Part shown: piece by piece, positions 19,328 through 24,571 of the stretch
How positions within the stretch are numbered: the first letter of the stretch is position 1
Layout: each line of letters begins with the position of its first letter
Assembly: GCF_013520985.1 (NCBI RefSeq)
Contig: NZ_JACDTY010000007.1
Span: 186,001-250,000 of the forward strand
Length of the DNA: 64,000 nt
Source: Mesorhizobium neociceri
GTDB taxonomy: Bacteria; Pseudomonadota; Alphaproteobacteria; Rhizobiales; Rhizobiaceae
Direction of reading: 5' to 3'
Position numbers and translations under genes: made by a program
The notes under the pieces: model-generated
What the model was told of the DNA's origin: nothing
The model's database searches: none
The model's input: only the letters and a program-made list of their open reading frames with translations

Positions 19328-21379
19328 ATGGGTACTCGCGCCGGAGGACGACGCACGGGACCGAAATGCATTGCCATAGTCGGTCCCTTTGCAAGCGGTA
19401 AGACGACACTTCTCGAAGCCATCCTCGCCCGTACGGGCGCCATCCCCCGCCAAAATCCTGTTTCATCGGGAAGCACCGTTTCCGATCATTCGCCCGAGGC
19501 CCGCGCCCATGCCATGAGCGTCGAGGCGACTTTTGCCACCACCGAATTCATGGGCGAGCAGCTCACCTTCGTCGACTGTCCCGGATCGATCGAATTCTCC
19601 TTCGAGGCAGAGCCGGTGCTGGCCGCCTGCGACATCGCCGTGGTCGTCGCCGAGGCCGACGAGAAGAAGATCCCCGCCTTGCAATTGATCATGCGCAAGC
19701 TCGACGATCTCGGCGTGCCGCGCATCCTGTTCCTCAACAAGGTCGACAAGGCGATCGCCGGCGTGCGCGACACACTGAAGATGCTGCAGCCGACGAGCGC
19801 GGCGCCGCTGCTGCTGCGCCAGATTCCGCTGCGCAAGGACAATGTGGTGATCGGTTCGATCGACCTGGCGCTGGAGCGCGCCTACATCTACCGCGAATAT
19901 GCCGAAAGCCAGGTTGCCGAAATACCAACTGACGACAAGGCGCGCGAGCTGGAGGCCCGTTTCTCCATGCTGGAGACGCTTGCCGACCATGACGACCAGT
20001 TGATGGAGCAGTTGCTGGAGGAGATCGAGCCGCCGAAGGACGCGGTCTTCGACGATCTGTCCGCCGACCTGCGCGCCGGCGCGGTGACCCCGGTGCTGAT
20101 CGGCACCGCCGAAAAGGGCAATGGCGTGCTGCGCCTGCTGAAAGCGATCCGCCATGACGCGCCGGACGTTGAGGCGACGCGTAAGCGGCTCGGCGTCCCG
20201 GACGGCAACCAGACCGTCGTCCAGGTGATGAAGACCATCCACACCGCGCATGGTGGCAAGCTGTCGGTGTCGCGCGTGCTCTCCGGCCAGATCGCCGATG
20301 CCGCCGAGCTTTATTTGTCGAACGGTGAGACGGCGAAGATCTCGGGCATCTACAAGATGCTCGGCAAGGACCAGTCCAAGCTCGTTGCCGCCAAGGCCGG
20401 CGACACGGTGGCGTTGGGCAAGCTGGACGAGGTCAAGACCGGCCAGACCCTGAGCTCCGCCAAGGGCGGCATGAAACCGCTGCTTACGCTGGCGCCGCCG
20501 CAGCCGGTCTTTGCCTTCGCGCTGCGGCCGAAGGAGCGCAAGGACGAGGTCAAGATGTCGGCGGCCATCCAGCGCCTGGCCGAGGAAGATCCCTCGCTCA
20601 CCCTGCGCCACAACCAGGACTCGGCCGAGACCGTGCTGTCCGGCCATGGCGAGATGCATCTGCGGGTCGTGCGCGAGCGGCTGGAAGGCAAGAACCAGAT
20701 TCCGGTCGAAGGCCATGCTCCGGCCGTTCCCTATCGCGAGACGATCCGCAAGACGGTGCAACAGCGCGGCCGTCACAAGAAGCAGTCCGGCGGCCATGGC
20801 CAGTTCGGCGATGTGGTGATCGAGATCAAGCCGCTGCCGCGCGGCTCCGGCTTCCAGTTCTCGGACACCATCACTGGCGGCGTCGTGCCCAAGACTTACA
20901 TCCAGTCGGTAGAGACCGGCGTGCGCGACTATCTGAAATCCGGCCCGCTCGGCTTCCCTGTGGTCGATGTCGCCGTCAACCTCTCCGACGGCTCCTACCA
21001 CGCGGTCGATTCCTCGGACATGGCCTTCCAGATGGCGGCCAAGCTGGCGATGAAGGAAGGCATGGCGGCCTGCTCGCCGGTGCTGCTCGAGCCGGTGATG
21101 AAGGTCGAGATCGTCACGCCGTCAGAAGCCACGTCGAAGATCATTGCGCTGATCCCGCAGCGGCGCGGCCAGATCCTCGGCTACGACGCGCGGCCCGACT
21201 GGCCCGGATGGGATGTCGTCGAGGCGACCATGCCGCAGGCCGAGATCGGCGATCTGATCATCGAACTGCGCTCGGCGACCGCCGGCGTCGCCAGCTATCG
21301 CTGTGCCTTCGATCATATGGCCGAGCTTACCGGACGGTTGGCCGACGAGGCGATGAACACCAACGGCAAGGCTGCATGA
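19328..21379 (+). CDS. Elongation factor G-like GTPase paralogue (divergent)
   Basis: This 683-residue protein has all EF-G domains in order: GTPase (P-loop GPFASGKT at 19-26, DCPG at 83-86, NKVD), domain II, domain III, domain IV (GHGQFGDVVIEI), and domain V (PQRRGQILGYD). The open frame extends upstream, but ATG 19328 with GGAGG before it places the P-loop at the N terminus. The residue after DCPG is Ser87 where translocating EF-G has the catalytic His, and the RGIT switch I motif is lost. It is therefore probably not the main translocase. Ribosome rescue, recycling or a stress role is inference. It probably has its own promoter in the 244 bp upstream. Confidence 0.88.
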   Translation: MGTRAGGRRTGPKCIAIVGPFASGKTTLLEAILARTGAIPRQNPVSSGSTVSDHSPEARAHAMSVEATFATTEFMGEQLTFVDCPGSIEFSFEAEPVLAACDIAVVVAEADEKKIPALQLIMRKLDDLGVPRILFLNKVDKAIAGVRDTLKMLQPTSAAPLLLRQIPLRKDNVVIGSIDLALERAYIYREYAESQVAEIPTDDKARELEARFSMLETLADHDDQLMEQLLEEIEPPKDAVFDDLSADLRAGAVTPVLIGTAEKGNGVLRLLKAIRHDAPDVEATRKRLGVPDGNQTVVQVMKTIHTAHGGKLSVSRVLSGQIADAAELYLSNGETAKISGIYKMLGKDQSKLVAAKAGDTVALGKLDEVKTGQTLSSAKGGMKPLLTLAPPQPVFAFALRPKERKDEVKMSAAIQRLAEEDPSLTLRHNQDSAETVLSGHGEMHLRVVRERLEGKNQIPVEGHAPAVPYRETIRKTVQQRGRHKKQSGGHGQFGDVVIEIKPLPRGSGFQFSDTITGGVVPKTYIQSVETGVRDYLKSGPLGFPVVDVAVNLSDGSYHAVDSSDMAFQMAAKLAMKEGMAACSPVLLEPVMKVEIVTPSEATSKIIALIPQRRGQILGYDARPDWPGWDVVEATMPQAEIGDLIIELRSATAGVASYRCAFDHMAELTGRLADEAMNTNGKAA

Positions 21380-21399
21380 CAGGCGGTGCTGATCCGCAC

Positions 21400-21505
21400 A
21401 AAAAACGGCGCCCGGATGATCCGGACGCCGCTCCTATTGCGGACCGTCTTCTTGGGAGGAAAACGGCAGGTCCGCCGCATGTATCCGCCGCGCCTGGCGG
21501 CACTG
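21400..21505 (-). ncRNA. Candidate AbcR-type (alpha-r15) small RNA, copy 2
   Basis: No gene fits this stretch, but on the minus strand it has the shape of a trans-acting sRNA of about 105 nt. A hairpin with GCGGACC...GGTCCGC arms presents TTTTCCTCCCAAG in its loop, and a strong terminator with a U-run ends it. The CUCCCA motif is the known target-binding element of AbcR RNAs, which repress ABC-transporter mRNAs with Hfq. A weak CTATTC at about 21512-21517 could be the -10 box; a poor -35 would fit activation by the LysR protein encoded nearby. The 5' end is an estimate. Confidence 0.6.
21406..21430 (-). terminator. Intrinsic terminator of candidate sRNA copy 2
   Basis: On the minus strand CGGCGTCCGGAT and ATCCGGGCGCCG pair (one G-U wobble) and are followed by six T residues. 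No minus-strand gene ends here, so the terminator itself is evidence for an untranslated transcript. Confidence 0.85.
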
Positions 21506-21705
21506 GCAGACGAATAGGTTCGGACGCGGTAGCCGCCTGAGCCCGGATCTTCCGAGTGATGCCCCCATCTCCCGGACGAACCAAACCGCGTCCTATGATC
21601 TGCTTAAACGATGAATCGCGCCTGCGCCATGTTACCTGAGGTTACATGTCACTGTTACGCGGCAATGCTGATCGGTTTTTTTCGGCGGTTGCGGCAGGCC
21701 TGAAA

Positions 21706-21823
21706 ACAAAAAAGCCGGATCAACGAAGATCCGGCTGAGTTTGATTGGAAGTGCCTGTTAAGGCTAACCTCCAGAGGGGAACACTCGAGGGCGCTAATGG
21801 GAGGAGAACGCGCCCAGGAGATG
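21706..21823 (-). ncRNA. Candidate AbcR-type (alpha-r15) small RNA, copy 1
   Basis: This minus-strand unit of about 118 nt has a promoter-like CTTGTT-N17-ACATAT at 21858-21830, a first hairpin with GGGCGC/GCGCCC arms and the loop TTCTCCTCCCATTA, a second TTCCCCTCTGGAGG region, and a terminator with a U-run. Length, the CUCCCA loop and the tandem arrangement with the unit at 21400 match the AbcR1/AbcR2 pair of rhizobia and Brucella. Those RNAs are encoded beside a LysR gene of the LsrB/VtlR type, which lies 0.8 kb away here. Family assignment is by pattern and synteny, not alignment. Confidence 0.65.
21712..21736 (-). terminator. Intrinsic terminator of candidate sRNA copy 1
   Basis: AGCCGGATC and GATCCGGCT form a perfect 9-bp stem with a short loop, followed on the minus strand by TTTTTTG and further T residues. 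There is no coding region ending upstream on that strand. Confidence 0.9.
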
Positions 21824-22099
21824 ATCTATATATGTGCTCATCATGCCCAAGAAACAAGCATCTATTTTGCAACACACGCATGCAAAAAGGCGCAGGCTGT
21901 GGTCTAACCCATTTTGGGGCCCGATAGGACCAGAAAAAGACTTCAAATGGCCTGCGCGAACGGCCCATTGCTGTCAAGGGACCATCACTGGGCCTGATTT
22001 CCGCGCCGAAACGCAAGAAACTGGAATGACGTCGAATCGAGCAGAGCGCGGTTATTTTTGCAGCATCGGACCGGGATAGGGTCGGCGAGGAGACCTGAA

Positions 22100-22597
22100 A
22101 TGCGGACAGCTCAGGCGATTGCCGGCAGCGCGGTCTTCTTCATCGCCGCACCTTGCATCGTCGCCGGTGTGGTGCCCTGGCTGCTGACCGACCACTACCA
22201 TCTGCCGCTATCGACTGTGCCGGGCTTCGTTCCGCTCGGCTGGCTTCTGATCCTCGCGGCAATCGCCCTGCTCGTTCATTCCTTTGCCCGCTTTGCGCTC
22301 GAAGGCCTCGGCACGCCGGCACCTGTCGCACCCACCGAGAGACTGGTGATCGGCGGCATCTACCGCCATGTCCGCAACCCGATGTATGTCGCCGTGCTGT
22401 CGATCATCCTCGGCCAGGCGCTGCTGTTTTCGAGCTGGACCGTCGTCGCCTATGCCGTCATCGGCGCGATCGCCATGGGCTCCTTTGTGAAGCTTTACGA
22501 AGAGCCGACACTGGCCAGCCGCTACGGCGCCGAATACGAGACCTACCGCCGCAACGTCCCCGGCTGGCTGCCGCGGCTGACGCCGTGGCGGGGGTAA
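22100..22597 (+). CDS. Isoprenylcysteine methyltransferase-like membrane protein
   Basis: This 165-residue integral membrane protein has about four hydrophobic segments. It carries the methyltransferase signature (LVIGGIYRHVRNPMYVAVLSIILGQ) and the downstream EEPTLASRYGAEYETYRRNVPGW motif. A lipid or small-molecule methyltransferase activity with SAM is expected from the family. ATG 22100 follows GAGGAGA. It lies between the sRNA pair and the LysR gene, converging with the latter. Confidence 0.82.
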   Translation: MRTAQAIAGSAVFFIAAPCIVAGVVPWLLTDHYHLPLSTVPGFVPLGWLLILAAIALLVHSFARFALEGLGTPAPVAPTERLVIGGIYRHVRNPMYVAVLSIILGQALLFSSWTVVAYAVIGAIAMGSFVKLYEEPTLASRYGAEYETYRRNVPGWLPRLTPWRG

Positions 22598-22619: not shown

Positions 22620-23516
22620 TTAAAACGACCAGCTGCGCGCTTTGGCGATGATGAAATCCCGGAACACGTGCAGCTTGGCCTGGTTCTTCATCGCGTCGGG
22701 ATAGGCGAAATAGGTGTCGAAGGACGGCACCTCGGTCTCTGGCAGCAGCTGCACCAGATCCGACTCCTTGGAGATCACATAGTCGGGCAGCATGGCAATG
22801 CCGGCGCCGCCCTGCACGGCGCGCTTGATCGATAAGATGTCGTTGATTTGCAGCGTCGGCACCCTTTGCCCGCCTTCGAAATCGCCGATCGTTTCCAGCC
22901 AGTTCAGCTCCGACAGATGCGACGGCACCGGCACGCCGAAGGTGACGATGCGATGGTTCTTCAGGTCTGCGACCGAGGTCGGCTTGCCGTGTTTGCCGAC
23001 ATAGGCCGGCGAGGCATAGAGGTGGAAATGCACCGTGAACAGGCGGCGCTGGATCAGGTCGGGCTGCTGCGGCTGGCGCAGCCTGATCGCGCAATCGGCC
23101 TGGCGCATGGTGAGGTCGAGTTCCTCATTGGCGAGGATCAGCTGCAGGCTGATTTCCGGATAGAGCTCGATGAATTCCTGCACCCGCTCGGTCAGCCAGC
23201 CGGCGCCGAGCCCGACTGTCGTCGTCACCCTGAGCACGCCGGACGGCCGATCCTTGGCCTCGGTCAGCCGCGACTTGATGGTCTCCAGCTTCATCAGCAC
23301 GTCATGGGCCGTGCGGAACAGCATCTCGCCCTGCTCGGTCAGCACCAGGCCGCGGGCATGCCGGTTGAATAGCGGCACGCCGACATCGTGTTCGAGCGCG
23401 CTGACCTGGCGTGAAATCGCCGATTGCGACAGATGCAATGTCTCGGCGGCATGGGTAAACGACCCAGCCTCCGCCGCAGCGTGAAACACGCGAAGCTTGT
23501 CCCAGTCCAACGCCAT
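22620..23516 (-). CDS. lsrB: LysR family regulator, LsrB/VtlR-like
   Basis: This 298-residue LysR regulator has a winged helix at the N terminus (LRVFHAAAEAGSFTHAAETLHLSQSAISRQVSALEHDVG) and a LysR substrate domain with GAGWLTERVQEF and the HLYASPAYVGKHGKP stretch. Its place next to trxB and lrp, and near the sRNA pair, matches the LsrB (Sinorhizobium) / VtlR (Brucella, Agrobacterium) locus, whose product controls abcR2, envelope and redox genes. The open frame extends upstream, but ATG 23516 gives the usual LysR length. The name rests on sequence character plus synteny. Confidence 0.82.
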   Translation of the reverse strand: MALDWDKLRVFHAAAEAGSFTHAAETLHLSQSAISRQVSALEHDVGVPLFNRHARGLVLTEQGEMLFRTAHDVLMKLETIKSRLTEAKDRPSGVLRVTTTVGLGAGWLTERVQEFIELYPEISLQLILANEELDLTMRQADCAIRLRQPQQPDLIQRRLFTVHFHLYASPAYVGKHGKPTSVADLKNHRIVTFGVPVPSHLSELNWLETIGDFEGGQRVPTLQINDILSIKRAVQGGAGIAMLPDYVISKESDLVQLLPETEVPSFDTYFAYPDAMKNQAKLHVFRDFIIAKARSWSF

Positions 23517-23596: not shown

Positions 23597-24571
23597 TTAT
23601 TCCGCCGCTTCGCGGAGCACCTCGATGCCGGCCAGGTATTTTTCCGCCTCGAGCGCGGCCATGCAGCCAAGCCCGGCGGCGGTCACCGCCTGGCGGTAGA
23701 TGTCGTCGGTCACGTCGCCGGCGGCGAACACGCCGGGTACGTCGGTGCGGGTCGAATTCGGCGCCGTCCACAGATAGCCGTTCGGCTTCTGCTTCAGCTT
23801 GCCGACAAACAGCTCCACCGCCGGCGCATGGCCGATCGCCACGAACACGCCGTCGACCTTGAGATGGCTGATCTCCCCGGTCACCGCATTCCTGAGCTTC
23901 AGCCCTTCGACCGAAGGCGGCAGCGGTGTCTTGCCGGGCCGGCCGGTGATCTCGTCGACGATCGTATCCCAGATGACGCGGACATTGTCCTTCTTCAACA
24001 GCCGCTCACGCAGGATGCGCTCGGCGCGGAAATCGTTGCGCCGGTGGATGACGGTCACGCTCTTCGCCAGATTGGAGAGGTAGAGCGCCTCCTCCACCGC
24101 CGAATTGCCGCCGCCTATGACAGCGACATCCTTGCCGCGATAGAAGAAGCCGTCGCAGGTGGCACATGCCGAGACGCCGAAACCCATGAAGGTCTGTTCG
24201 GTCGGGATGCCCAACCACTTCGCCTGCGCGCCGGTGGCGATGATCAGCGCGTCGGCCGTGTAGATGGTGCCGGAATCGCCTTTGGCTCGGAACGGCCGCA
24301 CGTTGAGATCGACCTCGGTGATTATGTCGTTGATGATGTCGGTGCCGACATGCTCGGCCTGTTTCAGCATCTGTTCCATCAGCCAAGGACCCTGGATCGG
24401 ATCGGCGAAGCCGGGATAGTTTTCGACATCGGTGGTGATCATCAGCTGGCCGCCCTGCTGCAGGCCGGCGACGAGCACCGGCTTCAGCATGGCGCGCGCG
24501 GCATAAACCGCGGCGGTATAGCCGGCCGGGCCGGAACCGATGATGAGAACAGGCGCGTGCTTAGTGGTCAT
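23597..24571 (-). CDS. trxB: Thioredoxin-disulfide reductase
   Basis: This 324-residue flavoenzyme reduces thioredoxin with NADPH in the cytoplasm. It shows the FAD motif GSGPAG (12-17), the redox pair CATC (136-139), the NADPH-binding GGGNSAVEEALYLS and the C-terminal FAD motif FAAGDVTD. The ATG at 24571 has AGAGG upstream. It is 80 bp upstream of the LysR gene on the same strand, so partial co-transcription is possible, and it diverges from lrp across 256 bp that must hold both promoters. Confidence 0.96.
   Translation of the reverse strand: MTTKHAPVLIIGSGPAGYTAAVYAARAMLKPVLVAGLQQGGQLMITTDVENYPGFADPIQGPWLMEQMLKQAEHVGTDIINDIITEVDLNVRPFRAKGDSGTIYTADALIIATGAQAKWLGIPTEQTFMGFGVSACATCDGFFYRGKDVAVIGGGNSAVEEALYLSNLAKSVTVIHRRNDFRAERILRERLLKKDNVRVIWDTIVDEITGRPGKTPLPPSVEGLKLRNAVTGEISHLKVDGVFVAIGHAPAVELFVGKLKQKPNGYLWTAPNSTRTDVPGVFAAGDVTDDIYRQAVTAAGLGCMAALEAEKYLAGIEVLREAAE

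Follow-up and report, generated by a model that had tools for sequence, protein, structure and literature searches.

An AbcR1-like small RNA beside lsrB/vtlR in Mesorhizobium neociceri, and an apparently undescribed structured RNA behind it

AbcR small RNAs tune nutrient uptake in plant symbionts as well as in plant and animal pathogens. Their two seed motifs, M1 (CUCCCA) and M2 (GUUCCC), are defined in the available sections of PMC5461406, and the box recognized by the regulator VtlR, GCAT-N3-TG-N3-T, is defined in those of PMC7486931, where lsrB is also said to leave the AbcR levels of S. meliloti 1021 unaffected. According to the portion of PMC8844928 at hand, AbcR1 is dependent on LsrB, and in the S. 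meliloti promoter PabcR1 the LsrB box spans positions -61 to -49. Finally, chain A of PDB entry 9HH1 is the LsrB of A. tumefaciens (PMC11975290, accessible part).

The window analysed here, by which we mean the whole 64-kb stretch of Mesorhizobium neociceri DNA, had been predicted to carry a tandem pair of AbcR-like RNAs next to such a regulator. The two non-coding minus-strand units are indeed present, each with a strong terminator hairpin and a CUCCC-bearing loop (Table 1), and, taken as a whole, the original prediction is partly confirmed as an observation and partly supported as an interpretation. We assign a probability of about 0.62 to the reading that the locus is a two-sRNA module, in which an ortholog of AbcR1 (unit 2) stands under LsrB/VtlR and a separate sRNA of approximately 193 nt (unit 1) has a different activator. 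In a scan of the window at Rfam gathering scores, the single match over its cut-off was ar15 (RF02345), and since the ar15 model matches unit 2 and not unit 1, one of the two units is an AbcR by the very covariance-model check that had been proposed. Unit 1 itself is real, while the length of about 105 nt first attributed to it is wrong, that estimate having covered only the 3' half of the conserved RNA. The gene order Lrp-trxB-lysR-(PEMT)-unit 1-EF-G-like gene recurs across the homologous loci. In particular, the membrane methyltransferase gene between the regulator and the sRNAs is where it had been placed, yet it is not a local change, as had been suggested, because, of the 60 named loci with lysR in view, 48 have it in this place and 12 do not (e.g. 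L127, L147, L153 and L157).

Table 1. Positions of the features of the locus within the 64-kb window.
Feature	Positions	Strand	Basis or remark
EF-G-like gene running towards unit 1; provisional start	19343..21379	+	PF03764, PF00009
Unit 1, structured sRNA, 193 nt (start inferred)	21402..21594	-	conservation, covariation, models R1 and R2
Unit 1, terminator	21401..21431	-	12-pair stem followed by a U run; double changes at 6 of the 12 pairs
Unit 1, 3' hairpin GCGGACC...GGUCCGC with CCUCCC (CUCCCA) loop	21439..21475	-	loop-type motif in 119/128 homologs
Unit 1, conserved motif GCGGCGGACCUG	21467..21478	-	GCGGCGG[AG]CCT in 128 of 155 sites
Unit 1, 5' domain: closing stem GGACGCGG/CCGCGUCC and long inner hairpin	21522..21594	-	
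Unit 1, almost invariant apical hairpin GAUG-GGGG-CAUC	21558..21569	-	GATGGGGGCAT in 150 of 155 sites found by a regular expression that itself demanded a GGGG-type apical hairpin
Unit 1, operator GTAACAGTGACATGTAACCTCAGGTAACAT	21629..21658	-	GTAAC at -64, -51 and -41 from the inferred start
Unit 2, AbcR sRNA (Rfam ar15), AbcR1-like	21708..21822	-	cmscan 43.9 bits; fold z -6.5
Unit 2, terminator stem, then T run	21713..21736	-	terminator scan and fold
Unit 2, M2 seed GUUCCC	21777..21782	-	motif of PMC5461406 (available sections)
Unit 2, M1 seed CUCCCA, loop of hairpin 1	21798..21803	-	motif of PMC5461406 (available sections)
LsrB/VtlR box GCAT-N3-TG-N3-T, -61 from the unit 2 start	21871..21883	-	box of PMC7486931 (available sections)
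PEMT-family membrane methyltransferase gene	22100..22597	+	PF04191
LysR regulator, LsrB/VtlR ortholog	22620..23516	-	206/298 identity to 9HH1; adjoins trxB
trxB-type gene (pyridine nucleotide-disulphide oxidoreductase)	23597..24571	-	PF07992

The assignment of unit 2 follows from several features. Its ar15 score exceeds the gathering cut-off of 40 bits, its fold energy lies far below that of shuffled sequences, and it contains both AbcR seeds. The LsrB/VtlR box in front of it is a perfect match, lies within the inverted repeat TTTTGCA-N9-TGCAAAA, and has the same position relative to the start as in AbcR1 of S. meliloti. It should be noted that this box is short and its sequence occurs 13 times in 64 kb when both strands are counted, so that its weight rests on position and conservation: among 38 ar15 genes of this locus (37 from relatives plus that of the window), the exact box is found within -75 to -45 in 31, and a looser GCAT...TGCA repeat in 36. 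The neighbouring protein, predicted to be LsrB/VtlR on the ground of its LysR gene lying beside trxB, is a full-length LysR protein that is 69% identical to chain 9hh1_A, and this claim stands; high identity, the adjacent trxB and the box 5' of abcR are all shared with LsrB/VtlR, and no tested feature differs. A homolog search with it returned, among the names shown, the LysR family and nothing more specific. We take the gene at 23597..24571 to be trxB on the strength of its family and of its position next to lysR. By analogy with the family, from which its AbcR1 function is taken over, unit 2 would be activated by the neighbouring LsrB/VtlR regulator and would act through its CUCCCA and GUUCCC seeds on the ribosome-binding sites of transporter mRNAs. 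The genome as a whole has three ar15 matches over the cut-off. The other two, at G000:C15:47061-47147 (L001, 49.5 bits) and G000:C65:278912-279007 (L002, 46.0 bits), are shorter genes located elsewhere; both show weak similarity to SorX, and no LsrB box was found in the 130 nt 5' of either. Adjoining the copy on C15 is a match to the cspA thermoregulator below its threshold (L001:1754-2065, 46.3 bits, cut-off 78).

Unit 1 is highly conserved. A search with positions 21380-21720 gave matches in 144 of 146 genomes of the genus, and the homologs, aligned over 62 loci after 8 partial or paralogous ones had been left out (the fold being computed on 32 of the 62), share one layout: the operator is followed by AGGACGCGG, which looks like a start, then by a conserved 5' domain and, after a linker that varies, by a conserved hairpin and the terminator. 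From this conservation and spacing we infer that the RNA starts near 21594, and its length follows from that. It begins with a 5' domain of 73 nt, whose stems covary, and continues with a GCGGCGGACC stretch, a hairpin that usually has a loop of CCUCCC type, and the terminator; a simple terminator scan of the minus strand flagged solely the terminator of unit 2. Over 47 sequences of the 5' domain, with L106 omitted, 13 of 24 pairs show double changes, as compared with 7.2 +- 1.2 in shuffles and 6-11 when the structure is slid along the alignment, and the double-change cells number 68, against 14-36 in the slid versions; since the structure was taken from the window's own fold, the test favours it over the slid versions. 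Over the whole of unit 1 (33 sequences), double changes are seen at 14 of 49 pairs, 6 of them in the terminator stem, while shuffles give 7.1 +- 1.4 and slid versions 5-8. The structure given here is that of the 5'-domain model, R2; model R1 has a weaker automatic consensus. Even in L107, where the apical hairpin reads AATG/CATT, its pairing is kept. Of the 155 sites found by regular expression, 128 have the motif GCGGCGG[AG]CCT no more than 180 nt from the 5' domain, and CCTCC or CTCCC is present in 119 of these 128 homologs and absent in 9. Lineages whose hairpin has lost the CCUCC/CUCCC loop are found in L103-L107, and in L107 the terminator stands close behind GCGGCGGACCUGA. Diverged relatives also exist: a 5' domain alone, with neither operator nor 3' part and with no ar15 nearby, was found at L059:1306-1379, L060 (near 1301-1378) and L061:1306-1379, that is, in two other Mesorhizobium genomes, G080 and G053, the former having two copies approximately 7.5 kb apart, whereas L062:1301-1485 is a diverged second copy of unit 1, lacking the GTAAC operator, in G044, a genome in which a normal copy is present as well.

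The operator of unit 1 is equally well kept. After removal of one unrelated site (L199) and of the orphan or decayed paralogs without operator (L059-L062) from the 155 distinct sites, 150 remain, and in 145 of these GTAAC-N4/5-GTAAC begins 51-54 nt 5' of GGACGCG; in the other five (L097, L100, L101, L105 and L106) the operator is degenerate. In the genome of the window, GTAACNNNNNGTAACNT occurs once and its backward-read control twice, while the longer operator pattern with up to 3 mismatches occurs once and its control never. As the control of the shorter pattern matched twice, its single match is not beyond chance, and the weight of the operator rests on its conservation. With the patterns tested, no second operator site that would define a regulon was found in this genome. 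The promoter of unit 1 probably depends on an activator other than LsrB/VtlR, perhaps one of the OmpR/PhoB winged-helix type, as suggested by direct GTAAC repeats that have a 10-nt period and reach to approximately -37. The operator may resemble boxes of the CpxR or MtrA type. ChvI was considered as the factor in question and set aside, because its motifs as given in the available part of PMC9731502, N-GCC-N8-GCC and TTGC-N3-GCAA, do not fit; literature searches on ChvI gave nothing relevant among the matches listed.

Beyond the genus, unit 1 is also found in relatives. Model R1 reached at least 40 bits in 29 of 297 genomes of the family, belonging to 13 of 109 genera, and 41 further genomes gave only weaker matches (E <= 0.1); the one such locus inspected, L108, is without operator. 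The 5'-domain model detects a single copy in the window's genome, where all other matches have E values of 4 or worse, and, in a search of the order (297 genomes, 122 genera), it matched 8 genomes, all of Mesorhizobium. Both the family and the order search were run with stricter filters, which lose weak matches. The carriers named among the matches listed include Mesorhizobium, Aminobacter, Aquamicrobium, Pseudaminobacter and their kin; L118, L151, L176 and L179, which have neither the operator nor the GCGGCGGACC motif, were left out as chance matches. In all 35 full-length homolog loci tested, an ar15 gene lies 5' of unit 1 on the same strand, namely in 15 of 15 genus loci given and in 20 of 20 non-genus loci given (24 fetched), at a distance of approximately 90-350 nt in the latter. 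One locus, L095 (495-1175), has three ar15 genes in a row ahead of unit 1 and is the only one tested with more than one. Among other Rhizobiaceae, tandem ar15 genes are seen in at least 35 genomes (counted by eye among the matches listed, at scores of about 92 bits or higher), none of them among the 29 carriers; as this floor lies above the ar15 scores seen in carriers (up to 55.7 bits), the statement about carriers rests on the 35 linkage loci. The trxB-lysR pair adjoins ar15 in 21 of the 30 ar15 loci fetched from that list. In a tree of 53 LysR proteins, the 32 carriers form one side of a branch with a support of 100/100. That said, the non-carriers in this tree are the best ar15 scorers and are unevenly sampled, and because non-carriers nearer the clade lie outside the sample, a single origin is not proved.

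What could such an RNA be doing? A trans-acting sRNA under another input is the most economical reading of unit 1. Judging from the sequence, it would be a trans-encoded sRNA with a length of about 193 nt, found behind AbcR in the Mesorhizobium-Aminobacter clade; its 5' domain may act as a stable scaffold that displays the almost invariant GGGG loop, and its 3' part would display the conserved GCGGCGGACCUG stretch and, usually, an anti-Shine-Dalgarno loop of the CCUCCC type. Most likely, it would base-pair with mRNAs and so regulate them within the sphere that AbcR1 also serves, in response to another signal. Anti-Shine-Dalgarno pairing cannot be its whole role, since 9 of 128 homologs lack the loop but keep the remainder of the RNA, and the persistence of the 5' domain and of GCGGCGGACC in the lineages without a CCUCC/CUCCC loop implies that other contacts matter. 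Genomic sites complementary to CGGCGGACCUG number 24, as compared with 23 for the reversed control, which is no enrichment, and they show no clear pattern at start codons. A short open reading frame from the apical AUG was also considered and discarded: the lengths from the hairpin to GCGUCC fall in all three frames (98, 26 and 24 of 148), so no reading frame is conserved.

An unlikely, if conceivable, alternative is that unit 1 is an antagonist of AbcR, i.e. a sponge or target mimic whose AUGGGGG hairpin pairs with the CUCCCAU seed, such that a second signal lifts repression. The geometry of the two sequences fits, as does the linkage to ar15 in each of the 35 full-length loci given, and among 12 genomes tested, 9 have AbcR CCUCCCA and the GGGGG hairpin as their best predicted contact, the other 3 using the same hairpin against a UUCCCC/UCCCCU stretch. 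However, a fixed contact follows from two near-invariant sequences, and the accessibility-corrected energies, from -3.8 to -5.8 kcal/mol, offer no advantage over shuffled versions of unit 1, of which 7-17 in 20 did equally well in every one of the 12 genomes. The fuller scenario of a dedicated AbcR1 counter-RNA, in which LsrB would make AbcR1 in response to redox, a second signal acting through the GTAAC-repeat activator would make the masking GGGG-loop RNA, and abcR2 would have been replaced by this RNA once, at the base of the Mesorhizobium-Aminobacter clade, is to our mind speculative and rather improbable. Another reading that we hold to be doubtful is that unit 1 owes its effect chiefly to proteins bound by its 5' domain, as a scaffold or titrating RNA, with the anti-Shine-Dalgarno loop in a secondary part. 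No part of the RNA is more constrained than the 5' domain, which in G080 and G053 (L059-L061) also occurs with the 3' part missing, and the absence of the loop from the 9 homologs mentioned points in the same direction; what speaks against it is the result for CsrA. CsrA is the classical titrated protein, and in the window's genome it was not found (no PF02599 match at E <= 0.001, with 3 of 14 control genomes positive), and its titration by unit 1 was set aside.

Could unit 1, then, be a second AbcR, as the original prediction had it, in a tandem abcR1/abcR2 like those of Sinorhizobium and Agrobacterium? The tandem order beside trxB-lysR, the CUCCCA loop and terminator of unit 1, and the frequency of tandem ar15 genes in relatives (at least 35 genomes with two or more within approximately 500 nt) all agree with this, and for unit 2 the claim is borne out. 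We nevertheless regard it as very unlikely for unit 1, since the ar15 model, the M2 motif and the fold all speak against it. A permissive scan of 811 bases (21300-22110) gave no ar15 match at unit 1 up to E = 10. M1 is present in the unit 1 of the window and in 101 of 148 homologs, while M2 is missing from the former and present in only 5 of the latter. In place of the approximately 115 nt and three stem-loops of an AbcR, unit 1 has an inferred length of about 193 nt and a different conserved fold, with its own 73-nt 5' domain and its own operator, and L095 has three ar15 genes next to unit 1. A further reading, that the conserved stretch is no RNA gene at all and belongs to a UTR or acts as a DNA element, is likewise highly improbable, given the covarying stems, the operator at a fixed distance, the terminator, and a flanking gene that is convergent, ends at 21379, and in four Aminobacter loci (L120, L141, L160 and L168) has its start 1.6-2.0 kb from unit 1.

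The separate sRNA of our main reading was also compared with other described RNAs. In Rfam 15, no family exceeds its cut-off at unit 1. The best scores of the permissive scan were 20.4 bits for Scr1601, 18.7 for CcsR1 (RF02791; 29.0 in L095, cut-off 65.3), which leaves unit 1 outside the CcsR/cuckoo RNAs, and 18.0 for RcsR1 (RF02552, cut-off 60), all far too low; ar14 (RF02344) reaches 32.4 bits in L091 against a cut-off of 58.8. Literature searches, including the available portions of PMC3927594 and PMC7143759, yielded no description of it. In M. huakuii 7653R, MH_s25 (PMC5596092, accessible part) is similar in being 187 nt long and on the minus strand between two plus-strand genes. It was set aside as an ortholog on account of its position between speF and SAM_alpha, the closed genomes compared having the order SAM_alpha, speF, unit 1; this argument assumes synteny. 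The accessible part of that catalogue lists no candidate at the expected place, and its Table 1 names no ar15.

The closest known counterparts of the locus as a whole are the AbcR1/AbcR2 systems (RF02345) of Sinorhizobium, Agrobacterium and Brucella, with which unit 2 shares the covariance model, the seeds, the box and the place behind trxB-lsrB. In many Mesorhizobium loci, unlike in those systems, lysR and the sRNAs have a PEMT gene between them. The slot after the first ar15 gene, which is occupied by a second one in other Rhizobiaceae, is here taken by unit 1, whose only common feature with AbcR is a loop of CUCCCA type. Since unit 1 is highly conserved, exceeds no family's cut-off in Rfam 15, and stands behind AbcR in all 35 full-length loci tested, its regulator and its relation to AbcR1 are directly testable. 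The known part of the locus is the AbcR1-like unit 2 beside lsrB/vtlR, and the new part is apparently unit 1: where other Rhizobiaceae have a second AbcR, this nitrogen-fixing clade and its relatives apparently have at the lsrB locus a single AbcR and, behind it, an unrelated structured RNA with a switch of its own.
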